Origin: Flavobacteriales bacterium
Lineage (GTDB): Bacteria; Bacteroidota; Bacteroidia; Flavobacteriales_E; Vicingaceae
Assembly: GCA_029262875.1 (NCBI GenBank)
Contig: JAJCYO010000149.1
Location: forward strand, 1 to 64,000
DNA length: 64,000 nucleotides
Reading direction: 5' to 3'
Shown here: positions 15,218-27,135 of the stretch, piece by piece
Layout of the letters: every line of letters starts with the position of its first letter
How positions within the stretch are numbered: position 1 is the first letter of the stretch
The notes under the pieces: generated by a model
What the model was told of the DNA's origin: nothing
Seen by the model: the letters and a program-made list of their open reading frames with translations, nothing else
Databases searched by the model: none
Program-made: the position numbers and the translations under genes

Positions 15218-15262
15218 ATATTAACAAGAATAATCGAGAAACCGATTTAAAACAATTTGACA

Positions 15263-18049
15263 ATGAAAAATATTTATAAATTATTAATTTTTTCTTTTTC
15301 CCTATTAATTGCACAGAGCGCATTTTCAATGGGTTCGCCATTGATGGGAGGTGGATCATGGAATGCTTGTGGACCAGATAATTTTTATGACTCTGGTGAT
15401 ATTGGAGGAGACTACAGCAATAGTGAAAGCTTTACAGAAACCTATTGTTCTGATGCAGGGGATTGTATCCAATTTGTTTTTAGTGCCTTTAACACAGAGT
15501 CTTGTTGTGATGATTTAACTATATATGACGGACCAAACACTGGGTCACCATTAATAGGAACTTACGCAGGTACAGCTTTACCAAATGGAGGAACCATATC
15601 CTCTACTTCAGGTTGTTTAACTTTTGTATGGTCATCGGATGGATCAGTCGTTAGGCCCGGATGGGAAGCTGCATTTTCATGTGTACCATGCCCAGTACCT
15701 ACTTGTAGCGATGGAATACAAAACCAAGGTGAAACTGGTATTGATTGTGGCGGGCCTTGTCCTGCTTGTGGATTAAACCATAACATAGGAACTGGAAGTT
15801 GGAATACCTGTACTGGCAGTTTATTTGATACTGGTGGTTCAGGTGGTAGTTATGGTAATAGTGAATTAATTACTGAAACTTATTGTTCTGATGCTGGAGA
15901 TTGTATTTCTATCAATTTTAGCAGTTTTGCTACTGAATCTTGTTGTGATGATTTAACCATTTATGATGGCCCTAATACTGGCTCACCATTAATTGGTGTT
16001 TATGCAGGCTCTACAAGTCCTGGAACGGTGACTTCTACTTCCGGTTGTTTAACTTTTGTTTGGGATTCTGATGGATCAGTTACAGCTGCTGGATGGCAAG
16101 CCGCCATTTCTTGTGTTGCCTGTCCAGCTCCTACTTGTAGTGATGGAATTCAAAATCAAGGTGAAACTGGTATTGATTGTGGCGGACCTTGTCCTGCTTG
16201 TGGATTGAATCACAATACTGGAACTGGAAACTGGAACACTTGTACTGGTAGTTTATTTGATTCAGGTGGACCAGGTAGTGATTATAGTAATAGCGAATTA
16301 ATTACCGAGACTTACTGTTCTGATGCCGGGGATTGCATATCCTTTAACTTTAGCAGTTTTGCTACAGAGTCTTGTTGTGATGATTTAACCATATATGATG
16401 GACCTAATACAAGTTCGCCATTAATAGGAGTTTATGCTGGATCTACGAACCCAGGAACAGTAAATTCTAGTTCAGGTTGTTTGACTTTTGTTTGGGATTC
16501 TGATGGTTCTGTTACGGGAGCTGGTTGGCAAGCAGCTGCTTCTTGTTCGCCATGTCCTACCTGTACAGATGGAATATTGAATGGTCAAGAAATTGGAATA
16601 GATTGTGGTGGACCAACATGTCCAGCTTGCCCTTGTGCTTCACTACCTATCTTCAACGATGAAGCTTGTTGTGCAACACCTTTAACTGTAAATGCTGATT
16701 TATTGTGTGGATCTACCACGGCTGGTACTGTAGCCAATGCTACCCCTTCATTTAATGGAAACACATGTTTTGGAACAGATGATGATGATGTATGGTTTTC
16801 TTTTGTTGCTACACAAACAAATCATGAAATAGATCTTTTAAATGTTGCTGGTTCTGTAACCGACATGTACCACGCAGTGTATGGAGGAACCTGTAGTGCG
16901 ACTGGAGTTGCTTTAGTATGTAGTGACGCTAACAGTAGTACTGTTACTGGTCTAACGGTTGGTAACACCTATTTCATTAGAGTTTATACCTATACGGCTA
17001 CTGGTGGTCAGAATTCTACTTTCGATGTGTGTGTCGGAACACCACCGCCAAATGGACCGTGTGGTAACCCGGCTAATAATGACTATTGCTCAGATCCAGC
17101 AATTCTAACCCAAGGTGGTGGCGGATGGTCGAGTTCAACAACTCCTCTCTTTTCTGCGGATACTCCAGCCAACTCAGGCACATTGTTTTGTGGCTCAGTC
17201 GAAAATAATTCATGGTACCAATTTACCGCCTTGTCCTCAACAGAAATATTTAATTTTTCTAGTGTTACAAATTGTGTTAGCGGTATTCAGGCAGAGGTTT
17301 ATGATGTTACAACAGATGCTAATGGATGTTGTACAAATTTCACTTCAATGTCTAATTGTTGGAACCCTGCAACAGCGACCTCAGGTACAGTAACGGCAAC
17401 TGGCTTGACCATTGGAAACACTTACATATTAATGGTAGATGGTTTTGGTGGAGATAATTGTGATTTCACAGTAAGTGGATGGGAAGCGTCTGGTATACTC
17501 CCTGTAACACTTATTAGGTTTGAAGGTTACAATTACAGCAGCAGTAATAAATTAGTTTGGGCTACTCAATCCGAAATTAATAACGATTATTTCATTGTTC
17601 AAAAATCTTCTAACGCTAAAAGCTTTACTGATGCCGGTATCGTAGATGGAAATGGAAATTCAACCAATGTAAACGAATATGATTTTATTGATGATACTCC
17701 TTTTGCTGAAGTAACTTATTACCGATTAAAGCAAATTGACTTTGATGGACAATATGATTATTCAGGTATAATTGCCGTTGAAACAGAGAGAGATGTAGAT
17801 GTGACCATCTACCCTAACCCATCAAAAGATAACTTGTTTTTTGATTTGAGTGAAAGTAGAGACGCCTCTTATACTGTTATTTACACCAATGTGATAGGAA
17901 GTGTTATTAAAGAACAAATAAACATCTCTGAAGGAACGAATACTTACCAAGTAAGTGAGTTTATCAACCTTTCTTCTGGTATTTATTTCATTCAGATCTT
18001 AAACGAAAATGGTGAAGTAATTAAGCATCAGAAAATTGTTAAGGAATAA
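15263..18049 (+). CDS. T9SS type A surface protein with three CUB-like modules
   Basis: A 928-residue exported protein. The ATG at 15263 begins a signal peptide (to ~residue 22); an upstream TTG at 15257 adds only two residues and was rejected. Three CUB-like modules follow (~31-177, 178-321, 322-460), each with TETYCSDAGDC, ESCCDDLTIYDGPNT and SGCLTFVWDSDGS. Each is joined to a Cys-rich linker, CSDGIQNQGETGIDCGGPCPAC in the first two. Two bacterial PPC-like beta domains come next (VWFSFVATQTN, WYQFTALSSTE), then a LPVTLIRFEG segment. The type A sorting domain closes the protein (VTIYPNPSKDNLFFDL ... SGIYFIQILNENG ... HQKIVKE). It is exported by the T9SS and anchored or released at the surface; binding to glycans or particles is a reasonable guess. 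Confidence 0.88.
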   Translation: MKNIYKLLIFSFSLLIAQSAFSMGSPLMGGGSWNACGPDNFYDSGDIGGDYSNSESFTETYCSDAGDCIQFVFSAFNTESCCDDLTIYDGPNTGSPLIGTYAGTALPNGGTISSTSGCLTFVWSSDGSVVRPGWEAAFSCVPCPVPTCSDGIQNQGETGIDCGGPCPACGLNHNIGTGSWNTCTGSLFDTGGSGGSYGNSELITETYCSDAGDCISINFSSFATESCCDDLTIYDGPNTGSPLIGVYAGSTSPGTVTSTSGCLTFVWDSDGSVTAAGWQAAISCVACPAPTCSDGIQNQGETGIDCGGPCPACGLNHNTGTGNWNTCTGSLFDSGGPGSDYSNSELITETYCSDAGDCISFNFSSFATESCCDDLTIYDGPNTSSPLIGVYAGSTNPGTVNSSSGCLTFVWDSDGSVTGAGWQAAASCSPCPTCTDGILNGQEIGIDCGGPTCPACPCASLPIFNDEACCATPLTVNADLLCGSTTAGTVANATPSFNGNTCFGTDDDDVWFSFVATQTNHEIDLLNVAGSVTDMYHAVYGGTCSATGVALVCSDANSSTVTGLTVGNTYFIRVYTYTATGGQNSTFDVCVGTPPPNGPCGNPANNDYCSDPAILTQGGGGWSSSTTPLFSADTPANSGTLFCGSVENNSWYQFTALSSTEIFNFSSVTNCVSGIQAEVYDVTTDANGCCTNFTSMSNCWNPATATSGTVTATGLTIGNTYILMVDGFGGDNCDFTVSGWEASGILPVTLIRFEGYNYSSSNKLVWATQSEINNDYFIVQKSSNAKSFTDAGIVDGNGNSTNVNEYDFIDDTPFAEVTYYRLKQIDFDGQYDYSGIIAVETERDVDVTIYPNPSKDNLFFDLSESRDASYTVIYTNVIGSVIKEQINISEGTNTYQVSEFINLSSGIYFIQILNENGEVIKHQKIVKE

Positions 18050-21511: not shown

Positions 21512-21541
21512 CAAAATTAATAATTGTTGTTAGTTCTACAA
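21512..21541 (-). promoter_or_regulatory. Promoter for queD
   Basis: On the minus strand TTG (complement of 21539-21541) is followed after 19 bases by TAATTTTG (complement of 21512-21519), matching the Bacteroidota pattern. It lies 18 bases before the ATG and overlaps the 3' end of the preceding gene. Confidence 0.45.
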
Positions 21542-24500
21542 CCTACTCCCAATAACAATTACATCATCAATTTGTTCTAAATCTCCCATCCAGTCTATAA
21601 ATGAATCTGTTAGGATTTTATGTTGCTCTTCCATCGTATTAGCATTAATTGAAAGCAGCAATTGTTTAAATTGTTTGTAACGGAATTTTTTACCTTTCTC
21701 ACCACCAAACTGATCTGCATAACCGTCTGAAAATAAATAAACAGTATCTCCTTTATTTAGCTTAAAAGAATGTTTAGAAAACTCATTGGTTCCTTCCGAA
21801 TAACTTCCTATTGGGAATCTGTTCGCCTTAACTTCAAAAAGCATTAATCCATTTTCATCTGTCATATTTGGCTCTACTTCATCTCCTTCAATTACCTCTA
21901 ATTTTTTACTACTAATTACGTAAAGGGGATTGTAAGCTCCGGCATATTCCAATATTCCTGTCTTTTTATCAAATGTACAAAGTGATATATCCATACCATC
22001 TTTAATCGCATCCGAATCTACTTCTTGACGTAAGGTATCTGACACCCCTTTGTTTAATTCGTTTAATATCTTATGAGGTTCTGTTGTACCATATTCTCCA
22101 ACAATTTTATCTAAAAGGTTATAACCAACTATACTCATGAACGCTCCAGGAACACCATGTCCAGTACAATCTACAGCAGCAAAGAGTGATTTATTATTCT
22201 TTTGCGCCAACCAATAAAAATCTCCAGAAACAATGTCTTTTGGATTGAATAGAATAAACGTTTGAGATAATTGATTGGTAAACATCTCATCAGTTGGAAG
22301 AATCGCATCTTGTATTCTTTTTGCATAAGTAATACTATCAATAATATCTTTATTCTTACGTTCTAATTCCTTACTCTGCTGAACAACTTCCTCTGTTCGC
22401 TCTTCCACTTTTTCTTCTAATATTGCTTTTTCTTTTAATAAATTTCTCTCTCGTACTTTAATAAACCCAATGATTATAACTATTAATAAAATGGCACATA
22501 ATATCAGAAACCAAGGTCTTTGCCATAAGGGTGGAATAATTTCAAAACTATAAGTAACGGGTACTTTATTCCATATACCATTATTATTACTCGCTATTAC
22601 CTTAAAGGTATATTTTCCAGGAGGTAAGGGAGAATAAGTAATAAACGTTTGTTTTGTAGCAGGTCTCCAATCTTCTTCCAATCCTTCAAGCATTACCTTA
22701 TAGTAAACCTCATCCGGGTTGGTAAGGCAAATACTTGAATAATTAAATACTATGGACTTTTCTTTATAACCTAACTCAAGGTTATTTATCATAGCTCTAT
22801 CTTCAAGGTTAACACTTAAATTAGAAATTTGAGTAAGTGGTTCAAGTGTATTCACCGTTTCCTCTTTAATGTTAAGCTTTACAACTCCTTTAATCGTTCC
22901 AAACCACAGGTTTCCATCCTCATCTTTATAGGTAGCATTATGTTTTGACTCTATTCCAACATATCCCATTTTTTCGGAAAATGAATAAAACTCATCTTCT
23001 TTAACATCATATTTATTTAGTCCTTTATTCGTCCCAATCCATAAATTTCCATTATCATCAACGTTTAGCAGTGAGATATAATCCGATAACAACCCATTTC
23101 CAACGGTATATTCTTGTATGATTTTTTTACCATCAAATATTAAAACTCCTTTACCTTCAGTACCAATCCATAGGTTTCCTTTTTTATCTTCAATTATTGA
23201 TGTTGGTGTGATTTTACGCTTTAAATCAACCTTCGTAATTGTAGCACCATCTATTTTTGTGATTCCTTTACCTCTTGCGCCAACCCAAACTACATTTTTA
23301 GAATCTGAAAAAATAGTCGAAATTTCATTTCCTCCTAAACCATTTGATTGTGTTAGTCGAGCTACTTTTTGATTGTCTATTTCAAAGTAAACCAGTCCAT
23401 CTGTGGTTCCAACCCATAAGTTATTCGATTGATCCACCTCTAATGCCTTAATTATAAGTTGGTTCATATATGAGTTAATCATATAACTCATTTCAAACCT
23501 ATCTGCATTAGTGTTATACTTCATCACACCTCCTCCTTGCGTTCCTATCCAGATTCCATTATTATTATCTTCCTTAATGAAGTGAACTTCGTGGTATGGC
23601 AATCCTTTATCTTCTGAGTATGTTTTAACCAGCTTCGTATCTTTAAAAACAGAGATTCCCTCATTTGTTCCAAACCAATCTTGTCCTTTATTGTCTTTCA
23701 GTATGGATAAAACTTGTTCATTTACCAATCCATTTTGAACACCGTAAGAAATGAATTGATTTCCTTTATAAACGAGTAAGCCTGTCTCTTTCGTTCCAAA
23801 TAAGACATTCCCTTCTCTATCCTCCTTAATAAACCGAATATGATTGTCTTTAAGGCCTTTTTCTTTATTGATGGTTAATAAACCACTCTTATTTATTTTA
23901 CTAACCCCTCCTCCCCAGGTTCCTATCCATATATTACCTTTAGAATCTTCGCCTATGGCACTTACCCAATTTGAGGCTATTCCATCCAAGACATCGTATA
24001 TTTTTAACTCTCCTGATTCTTTTTTGTAATGGTATAGTCCTCCATTATAAGACCCAAACCATTGATCTTCATTTGCAGACTCAAACATACAGGTGATTTG
24101 GAAATATGCTGGCATATTATTTACCTTATAAAAGGCAAATGAATTTTTCTGGTAGTTATAGTTTTTAACACCTACATCAGTCACAAAATATATATTCCCA
24201 TTTTTAATTTTCGTGACCTGAAATACTACATCACTCAACCCTTCCTGTCCCTTATACTGATCAAAACTAATCGAATCTTTAGCCGGGGTATAAGGGTTGG
24301 TAATTTTTATAACTCCTTCTCCAAAAGAACTCACCCACAGATTTCCCTCATCGTCTGAGGCAAAAGAAGTAATATCCGCACTCATGCTAAAGAGCATTTC
24401 AATTTTCCCATTACGCATTCTAGAAATCCCTCCATCAACATGCCCTAACCATATTACTCCAACTGTATCTATATATATGGCTTTTACAGCTCCATCAGCC

Positions 24501-24748
24501 AACCCATCTTCTGTTGTGTAATTAATTATTTGGTTTCCATCAAAACTAGAAAGTCCGCTTGCGGTTCCTAACCATACAAAACCTTTTTCATCCTGATCTA
24601 TTGAATAAACACTTGATTGTGCGAGTCCTTCTTTTACACTGTAATTGTCAAAATGATACGTTTGAGCGTAAGTGCTCGCAATAAAAGCTAAAAAAATAAC
24701 CGACAAGATAAGTCCCTTGCCGGCTAAGTAAATTTTATTACAATTCAT
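21536..24748 (-). CDS. Two-component-type propeller receptor with SpoIIE (PP2C) phosphatase output
   Basis: A 1070-residue single-span signalling protein. Residues 1-28 are a signal peptide (ending ASTYAQ). Residues ~30-660 hold about a dozen repeats of the propeller motif (GNLWIGT...GV, NNGIWIGTQGGGV), as in hybrid two-component sensors. A Y_Y_Y domain follows (YKVMLEGLEEDWRPA ... LPPGKYTFKVIASN), then one membrane helix (WFLILCAILLIVIIIGFI) and a coiled coil (~790-840). The C-terminal ~230 residues are a SpoIIE phosphatase: SGDFYWLAQ, AAVDCTGHGVPGAFMS, GMDISLCTFD and LFSDGYADQFGG supply the metal-binding Asp residues. It probably dephosphorylates a Ser/Thr protein when an extracellular ligand binds. 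It starts six bases after the caspase gene. Confidence 0.92.
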   Translation of the reverse strand: MNCNKIYLAGKGLILSVIFLAFIASTYAQTYHFDNYSVKEGLAQSSVYSIDQDEKGFVWLGTASGLSSFDGNQIINYTTEDGLADGAVKAIYIDTVGVIWLGHVDGGISRMRNGKIEMLFSMSADITSFASDDEGNLWVSSFGEGVIKITNPYTPAKDSISFDQYKGQEGLSDVVFQVTKIKNGNIYFVTDVGVKNYNYQKNSFAFYKVNNMPAYFQITCMFESANEDQWFGSYNGGLYHYKKESGELKIYDVLDGIASNWVSAIGEDSKGNIWIGTWGGGVSKINKSGLLTINKEKGLKDNHIRFIKEDREGNVLFGTKETGLLVYKGNQFISYGVQNGLVNEQVLSILKDNKGQDWFGTNEGISVFKDTKLVKTYSEDKGLPYHEVHFIKEDNNNGIWIGTQGGGVMKYNTNADRFEMSYMINSYMNQLIIKALEVDQSNNLWVGTTDGLVYFEIDNQKVARLTQSNGLGGNEISTIFSDSKNVVWVGARGKGITKIDGATITKVDLKRKITPTSIIEDKKGNLWIGTEGKGVLIFDGKKIIQEYTVGNGLLSDYISLLNVDDNGNLWIGTNKGLNKYDVKEDEFYSFSEKMGYVGIESKHNATYKDEDGNLWFGTIKGVVKLNIKEETVNTLEPLTQISNLSVNLEDRAMINNLELGYKEKSIVFNYSSICLTNPDEVYYKVMLEGLEEDWRPATKQTFITYSPLPPGKYTFKVIASNNNGIWNKVPVTYSFEIIPPLWQRPWFLILCAILLIVIIIGFIKVRERNLLKEKAILEEKVEERTEEVVQQSKELERKNKDIIDSITYAKRIQDAILPTDEMFTNQLSQTFILFNPKDIVSGDFYWLAQKNNKSLFAAVDCTGHGVPGAFMSIVGYNLLDKIVGEYGTTEPHKILNELNKGVSDTLRQEVDSDAIKDGMDISLCTFDKKTGILEYAGAYNPLYVISSKKLEVIEGDEVEPNMTDENGLMLFEVKANRFPIGSYSEGTNEFSKHSFKLNKGDTVYLFSDGYADQFGGEKGKKFRYKQFKQLLLSINANTMEEQHKILTDSFIDWMGDLEQIDDVIVIGSRL

Positions 24749-24754
24749 ATTTTA

Positions 24755-27094
24755 TTATTTCTTGATAAAGAAAAAGGTCCCATTTTCATCTTCTAAACCA
24801 GCAATTTTTCCAAACTTAGGTTTTTGTTTTGTCCCACCTTTACTCACAGCAGTTTTTACTTTTCCAACTACAGTTTCTATCGGTATACAAGAATTTGGAT
24901 TACTATTTAAAGTAGCTGCAAATGTCTTTGTGAACTGAGAATTATCCGAAGCCAATTCATATCCAGCAGAAGAAAAAACCTGTGAAGATTTAAATTTAGT
25001 CGCTTGCCAATCATTACAGCTTCTATCCTTAGGAGTAGAACGCATTGCTTGATAGAATGATGGTCCAGACTCGCAAGCATCTGTTACCACCAATGTGTGC
25101 GTAATTATTTTTGAATACGACTGCATCCCTGCTTTTAAATTATTAATGTTAAAATAAGAAAACTCATCATCTCTTTTTGCGTCAGTCGGTATCCAATATC
25201 CTGATTCATTAATAAACTTACCATGACCAGCATACCACACCAATAGAGAATTTACCCGATTACTTTTAACTAAATCTCTTAACTCAATAGAGAAAAAACG
25301 TTCCAATTGAGATTTAGTCATGTTCTTTTTGTGCACGATATTATGAATCTTGTATTTTGCAAAAGCAGATTTCATCATCGTAACATCTTTTGTTGGTCCA
25401 TCTAAACTTGCAAACGATTTATATTTTGCATTTTCTATAAATATCACCCATGTCTTACCCATAGGGTTATCAGCCAATAATGCAATGTTCTCTCTGTTAA
25501 TCGTGTACTTCTTTGCTACTTTATTTCCATACTTATCTACAGCTGTAATAGTGAAATCATTTTTATTCATAATGTTAATGGTTGCAGAAAATTTTGGATT
25601 CTTTTCATCCAGTACAAAACTGGCTGTTGCACCTTCTATATGAATACTCTTAATTAAACTTTCATCATTCATATTTCCCTCTACGTATAATGTTGGGTCA
25701 TCGGTATCTAAATAAACCGTTCCATCATCAGAAGCATAAGGAGCTAATAATTTAACAATAGGGGCATTAACTTCTGTTTCCAAAATCTTAAAAGCCCATG
25801 TTTCTGAATTTTGATAAATATCAAAAACTGTTATGCTCAACTCCTTTATTTCTTTAATGTTTAACTCCAACTCAAAAGTAGGGTTAAGCGTATCCTTGCT
25901 AAAGCTTGCGTCTTTTCCGTTTATTTTAATAAATCCGATATGACTTTGATCTTTAATTCTACCCTTAACAGTATATAGTAAAGAACCCTTTGGTACAGCA
26001 ACTACACCTTCCTCTGGCGAAATAGGATCTATCATAACAATTTCAGGATTATTACTTTCTTTATTTAGTTCATAAAGCCTCTTTTTAGCTTCATCATAAA
26101 GTTTAATTGCTCTACCATCGTATGGAGACAACTTTCTTAATGACTCATAATCTTTGATGGCCGATTTATAATCAGACATTGCTTCATAAGATTTTGCTCT
26201 TTGGTAATAGACAAAGTAATCATCACTTTTAATCGATATTATTTTCGTGAAATCTGCAATAGCATTTTGGTTCTGACCTAACTCTTGATACATCTGCCCC
26301 CTCATTAAGTAGTATGTAGTTTCTTCTGGCTGGTAAGAAATTATTTTTGAAATAGCATCAACAGCCTTCTGGGGGTTACGGTTTGCCATATGAATATCCG
26401 CTCTCACTATTAGTGCATGAACGTTTTCCGGATCTATCTCTAAAGATTTATCAGAAGCTTCTAATGCCTTAGCAAAATCATTCAATTTCATATTAGAATA
26501 AGCCATTCCAATATGTGCTTCTATCATCTTAGGGCTATAGAATTTAGCTCTACTAAAACTGTATGCTGCTTCTTTAAAGTGCATTAAACTATCTTGGGCA
26601 ACACCTAAATCATAATATGTTTTTCCTGTTTTACTTTTAGTAACTGCAAGTTCGGCTGTTTCAACCGCAGCTGTAAACTGTTTTATTGCAATATGAGCGT
26701 TTACTTTTGTTGAATAAGCTGATAATAATTTTTTGTTCCGACCCAATGCCACACCCAATGAGGCAATGGCGTCCTCGTATTTACCCAAATGGTAATATGC
26801 CCTTCCTAAATTATTATGATAATCCGCTACTTTTACTTTAATTCCAGTAGCCTTCTTAAAATCCAATACTGCTTTTTCATAATTACCATCTCCTTCATAT
26901 GACAAACCTCTATAATTCAAAGCTCTATCATGATCGCTTTTTAGCTCTATAACTTTAGTGAATTCTTCTACAGCCAATTTATATTCTTGGTTTTTATAAA
27001 AGGTTTCTCCTGATTTAAAATGTGTAAAATAAGATTGGGAAAATGCACTTACACTTAACAACAAAAAAATGGGTAATAACTGTATCTTTCTCAT
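24755..27094 (-). CDS. Exported TPR-repeat caspase-like (C14) protein
   Basis: A 779-residue protein. The ATG at 27094 was chosen because it starts a compact signal peptide (MRKIQLLPIFLLLSVSAFSQ); an ATG nine codons upstream would precede it with MKTLYKNYI. Residues ~20-330 are about nine TPR repeats. Residues ~350-540 hold two beta-sandwich modules (VKGRIKDQSHIGFIKING, VEGNMNDESLIKSIHIEG). A caspase-fold peptidase domain follows, with the catalytic pair His624 (WYAGHGKF) and Cys674 (TDACESGPS). Both residues are present, so it is probably an active cysteine peptidase. The SpoIIE receptor gene follows six bases downstream. The peptidase targets and the pathway are unknown. Confidence 0.85.
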   Translation of the reverse strand: MRKIQLLPIFLLLSVSAFSQSYFTHFKSGETFYKNQEYKLAVEEFTKVIELKSDHDRALNYRGLSYEGDGNYEKAVLDFKKATGIKVKVADYHNNLGRAYYHLGKYEDAIASLGVALGRNKKLLSAYSTKVNAHIAIKQFTAAVETAELAVTKSKTGKTYYDLGVAQDSLMHFKEAAYSFSRAKFYSPKMIEAHIGMAYSNMKLNDFAKALEASDKSLEIDPENVHALIVRADIHMANRNPQKAVDAISKIISYQPEETTYYLMRGQMYQELGQNQNAIADFTKIISIKSDDYFVYYQRAKSYEAMSDYKSAIKDYESLRKLSPYDGRAIKLYDEAKKRLYELNKESNNPEIVMIDPISPEEGVVAVPKGSLLYTVKGRIKDQSHIGFIKINGKDASFSKDTLNPTFELELNIKEIKELSITVFDIYQNSETWAFKILETEVNAPIVKLLAPYASDDGTVYLDTDDPTLYVEGNMNDESLIKSIHIEGATASFVLDEKNPKFSATINIMNKNDFTITAVDKYGNKVAKKYTINRENIALLADNPMGKTWVIFIENAKYKSFASLDGPTKDVTMMKSAFAKYKIHNIVHKKNMTKSQLERFFSIELRDLVKSNRVNSLLVWYAGHGKFINESGYWIPTDAKRDDEFSYFNINNLKAGMQSYSKIITHTLVVTDACESGPSFYQAMRSTPKDRSCNDWQATKFKSSQVFSSAGYELASDNSQFTKTFAATLNSNPNSCIPIETVVGKVKTAVSKGGTKQKPKFGKIAGLEDENGTFFFIKK

Positions 27095-27135
27095 AATATA
27101 ATTTTTGTATAAAGTCTTCATTATCAGTTAATCGT

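Follow-up and report, generated by a model that had tools for sequence, protein, structure and literature searches.

LuxP/LuxQ pairs a periplasmic accessory protein with a receptor, the exported partner being encoded beside the transmembrane one. The gene pair described here, whose products are putative partners, differs in that its exported partner has a caspase fold and is not a periplasmic binding protein. Each protein of the pair also has described relatives. Bacterial orthocaspases and pseudo-orthocaspases share with it the Peptidase_C14 p20 region, the His-Cys dyad, common TPRs and the existence of dead variants (PMC3501461, PMC6426788), which made up 10 of 1078 Bacteroidetes homologues in a 2019 survey (PMC6426788); the present proteins stand apart in being exported, in their TPR-Ig-caspase architecture and in their fixed place next to a single receptor family. 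On the receptor side, the Bacteroides Reg_prop hybrid two-component receptors (BT4663, BT3049) are alike in periplasmic fold and sequence (4a2m, 4a2l), but the receptor here has a phosphatase (or cyclase) output and no histidine kinase, receiver or AraC domain. Its phosphatase aligns end to end, including the preceding coiled coil, with the PP2C domain of SiaA (6k4e) from the SiaABCD system of Pseudomonas aeruginosa, although SiaA is a two-span HAMP sensor (PMC7647112), whereas the receptor here joins a double propeller and a Y_Y_Y domain to one span and has an exported caspase partner. Full-text literature searches found no paper describing a caspase-receptor pair, and the word SpoIIE is absent from a survey of prokaryotic caspase operons (PMC3501461); that the carriers are mostly MAGs may account for the lack of an earlier description.

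The window, a stretch of 64,000 nucleotides from a Flavobacteriales bacterium (Vicingaceae), carries on its minus strand a TPR-Ig-caspase gene (24755..27094) followed by a propeller-Y_Y_Y-TM-SpoIIE receptor gene (21536..24748). The open reading frames end and start at 24755 and 24748, leaving the gap of 6 bp that an earlier note on this DNA had given. The longest form of the caspase frame is 24755-27121 (minus strand), with an alternative upstream ATG at 27121; the start at 27094 is likelier, because most close relatives (779-781 aa) start at the equivalent Met. It would open a predicted signal peptide, MRKIQLLPIFLLLSVSAFSQ (27035..27094, minus strand), recognized by reading the sequence, whose AQ-type cleavage site is kept in the consensus of relatives. 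Numbering residues from ATG 27121, a TPR superhelix follows (residues 33-353; 26063..27025, minus strand), identified by Pfam (nine or so repeats at about residues 35-340), AlphaFold and Foldseek; TPRs dominate the Foldseek match list, in which the TPR domain of OGT appears. Between the TPRs and the caspase domain stand two Ig-like beta domains that the earlier note had missed (residues 360-542; 25496..26044, minus strand), seen as AlphaFold strands with a pLDDT of about 80-91 and as a Glucodextran_B-like Pfam match slightly under the cut-off. The caspase domain (residues 555-788; 24758..25459, minus strand) is modeled by AlphaFold and matches Peptidase_C14 over residues 558-770 (E=6e-15, 56.0 bits against a curated 21.4), with no match among PDB sequences. 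The catalytic dyad proposed in the earlier note is present, as His633 in the motif WYAGHGK (25223..25225) and Cys683 in TDACESG (25073..25075), both on the minus strand and corresponding to His624 and Cys674 when counted from ATG 27094.

The receptor consists, in order, of a predicted signal peptide, a periplasmic double beta-propeller, a Y_Y_Y domain, one membrane span, a coiled coil and a SpoIIE phosphatase; the propeller, Y_Y_Y domain, span and phosphatase had been assigned from the letters and are borne out by Pfam and AlphaFold. The propeller (residues 30-660; 22769..24661, minus strand) matches Reg_prop (E=6e-46) and, among known structures, BT4663 (4a2m, E=8e-49, by fold) and 4a2l (E=1.5e-57). 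After the Y_Y_Y domain (residues 676-737; 22538..22723, minus strand; Pfam), the span at about residues 745-768 (22445..22516, minus strand), WFLILCAILLIVIIIGFIKVRER, is a helix in the model and leads into the coiled coil. The phosphatase occupies about residues 830-1069 (21542..22261, minus strand), with a SpoIIE match over residues 854-1067 (E=2e-17); of the proteins of known structure, SiaA is its closest relative (6k4e, E=3e-38, TM 0.90), a kinship that the earlier note had not noticed. Four metal-binding Asp residues (D843, D860, D1008 and D1061) are invariant in an alignment of 56 receptors, and this, with the homology to SiaA-PP2C, places the domain in the SiaA type. The SiaA equivalog model NF038263 scores 203.7 bits, below its whole-protein cut-off of 700, and covers the C-terminal part of the receptor only; with a SpoIIE output in place of a histidine kinase and AraC output, the protein is not a hybrid two-component system.

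To establish how widely the two genes travel together, the earlier note had set an adjacency count beforehand, and by that measure the pair is conserved well past its close relatives. Scanning GTDB species genomes gave 247 caspase relatives, and among the best 80 of the 247, a selection that favors close ones, comes entirely from MAGs at its named loci (80/80) and gives counts that are not phylogenetically independent, the receptor gene lies directly downstream of the caspase gene in 56 of 58 readable, nonduplicate loci. The intergenic gap has a median of 12 bp and is ≤70 bp in 89 of 97 cases, and direct succession is seen in nine or more groups of Bacteroidia at family level (f1, f5, f6, f9, f20, f27, f29, f39 and f42). 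Across 41 loci with <60% caspase identity, homology between locus pairs is 46% for the gene following the caspase gene, 8% for the gene upstream of it and 4% for the gene after the receptor. The caspase protein is encoded in 24 of the 46 genomes of the family group, and the receptor adjoins it in almost all of them; in the class sample, the caspase occurs in at least 47 of 396 genomes from many families, a lower bound because five more f9 genomes later proved to be carriers. In the reverse search of that sample, 45 genomes have the receptor and 43 of these the caspase as well (5.9 expected, uncorrected for phylogeny), and five of the 43 carry the two genes at unlinked loci. The distribution is patchy, since at a threshold of 1e-80 a phylum-wide sample of 392 genomes yielded a caspase match in the window genome only. 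On plasmids, no record covers 80% of the caspase protein, and the matches listed are at the level of TPRs. Mirror-tree correlations of caspase and receptor are inflated by shared ancestry and are not taken as proof, and the receptors that are split in L114/L232, L211 and L225 were excluded from the evidence as probable frameshifts of the assembly.

Caspases without a linked receptor are found in f3, in f60 and as second copies in f27, and in a few Vicingaceae the receptor is separated or lost (L039, L043), so the caspase can apparently act in some way alone; unlinked copies occasionally lack the dyad (f3, f27). The second TPR-caspase copies of f27 in L132, L135 and L136 have Thr for Cys (DATETG) and no receptor. 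Upstream of the TPR-caspase gene, four loci (L210, L212, L218 and L233) carry a further, short gene for a caspase domain (258-270 aa). At six others (L167, L173, L174, L175, L176 and L178), related propeller-SpoIIE receptors are preceded by genes for different exported proteins, with CarboxypepD_reg or no Pfam match; from gene order, these loci look as if every receptor had its own periplasmic partner.

One lineage retains the pair after losing the protease. In the 16 genomes of f9, Ala or Ser stands in place of the catalytic Cys, and some ten residues further on the protein stops ([LM]TR, then stop codon), an ending straight after the lost Cys that sets it apart from known pseudo-orthocaspases. 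The caspase remnant is nevertheless the most conserved segment of the protein (distance 0.28 versus 0.41 for the TPRs and 0.45 for the Ig region), and the gene still adjoins that of an orthologous propeller-Y_Y_Y receptor, whose C terminus is a class III cyclase (Guanylate_cyc). The K/D base-selecting residues in the cyclase motif suggest an adenylate cyclase, with cAMP as product. In a quick tree, a single long branch within the paired clade holds the f9 caspases. A receptor orthologue with a cyclase output also occurs once in f60, where it stands apart from an intact caspase. A 1866-aa frame in G371 had raised the suspicion of a caspase-receptor fusion, which was rejected, as the f9 locus has two separate genes. 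Since the f9 pair outlives both the loss of the Cys and the swap of the output, the link between sensor and caspase is, as judged from gene content, the constant, and the predicted protease activity and the output type vary. With the pair kept around a dead caspase, proteolysis cannot be the whole role of the protein; as the pair has survived both this loss and the change to a cyclase, the caspase probably partners the outer part of the receptor and is more than a protease.

The output of the phosphatase, reported in the earlier note as missing nearby, is indeed absent from the window locus, which has no siaB or siaC, but is probably a SiaB/SiaC switch encoded elsewhere in the genome. We propose this because the phosphatase is of the SiaA type, because siaB and siaC immediately follow the caspase-receptor pair in one relative (L241), and because the window genome has its own operon (G000:C63:3-4066; L260) in which a paralogous propeller-Y_Y_Y-SpoIIE receptor, without a caspase, is followed by siaB (kinase) and siaC (phosphoprotein). 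The NTSS region around the P. aeruginosa SiaC phosphosite, T68 (PMC7647112), is kept in SiaC here. The link from SpoIIE to SiaB/SiaC is one of association; this 3.9-Mb genome (G000) has 37 SpoIIE phosphatases and six SiaC proteins, so more than one SiaC is a candidate partner of the receptor. No GGDEF protein (SiaD) is encoded in the genome, which separates it from SiaABCD. The findings also suggest large-scale use of SiaB/SiaC switches by Bacteroidota that lack GGDEF cyclases. In L039, SiaB/SiaC genes lie some 5 kb from the caspase, but the window genome has the same cluster at another place (L262), and their nearness is more likely a chance product of rearrangement.

We favor, at a probability of roughly 60%, the reading that the two genes form one signaling unit in which the caspase protein is a periplasmic co-receptor or regulator of the receptor and the output runs through a SiaA-type phosphatase and SiaC. 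The exported TPR-Ig-caspase would contact the double propeller from the periplasm and act upstream of the receptor, its state being set by a putative ligand held by the TPRs, by caspase proteolysis or by both. The signal would then pass from the propeller through the Y_Y_Y domain and the one membrane span to the cytoplasmic phosphatase, which would dephosphorylate a SiaC-type protein that a SiaB-type kinase phosphorylates. The end target would not be c-di-GMP made by a GGDEF enzyme, because the genome has none.

The main rival to this co-receptor model is a strict proteolytic switch, in which the active caspase cuts the periplasmic part of the receptor, or itself, upon a stress signal, cleavage is the signal, and f9 is a derived exception that arrived with its new output. 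Both dyad residues are kept in every SpoIIE-paired relative with a readable caspase domain, the domain is the best conserved segment of active copies (mean distance 0.27), and the Asp preceding the Cys (DAC), in orthocaspases part of an acidic pocket for basic P1 residues (PMC6426788), is nearly invariant. Such a switch explains the conserved active dyads but not the dead lineage, which keeps its pair under strong constraint although both the Cys and the C-terminal end of the domain are gone, and no cleavage site was identified; we regard the switch as unlikely. The suggestion in the earlier note that the protease might set off the receptor or be under its control is supported only in part, given the dead caspase of the f9 pair.

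The opposite direction, with the receptor regulating the caspase or its expression and the caspase as a downstream effector in, for example, envelope remodeling or cell death, is improbable: the phosphatase is a cytoplasmic enzyme and the caspase an exported protein, f9 retains a dead caspase, and no defense family matched, against which stand the ties of prokaryotic caspases to both signaling and death (PMC3501461) and the apparent cotranscription across the 6-bp gap. A role in regulated cell death, raised in the earlier note, or in defense was dropped, PADLOC giving no match and nothing found pointing there. About as improbable is cotranscription without functional contact, one operon of inherited gene order; in its favor, conservation among Bacteroidales loci extends to a RibD-like gene upstream, but the flanks vary while the pair persists, the presence of caspase and receptor correlates even at unlinked loci, and the output was swapped with the sensor pairing retained.

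Beyond the single locus, the co-receptor reading extends tentatively to a class of caspase-gated transmembrane receptors, in which a propeller receptor might have an exported caspase or pseudocaspase as its subunit in the periplasm, acting by proteolysis in most lineages and by binding alone in one, and interchangeable outputs in the cytoplasm, either an adenylate cyclase or a SiaA-type phosphatase. If so, bacterial caspases, whose roles are mostly unknown, would gain a concrete non-death job as receptor partners, and the dead-caspase cyclase lineage would be a natural control separating binding from proteolysis.

Promoter and terminator scans were at or below chance. At position 21541, between the receptor and a PTPS gene, lies a sequence resembling a Bacteroidota-type promoter (TTG...TAATTTTG); the window has five such matches in all. 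A protein of 930 aa that appears to be exported is encoded at 15257-18049 of the window; it has three CUB-like repeats, similar to one another and rich in cysteine, and its C-terminal tail is of the sorting type.
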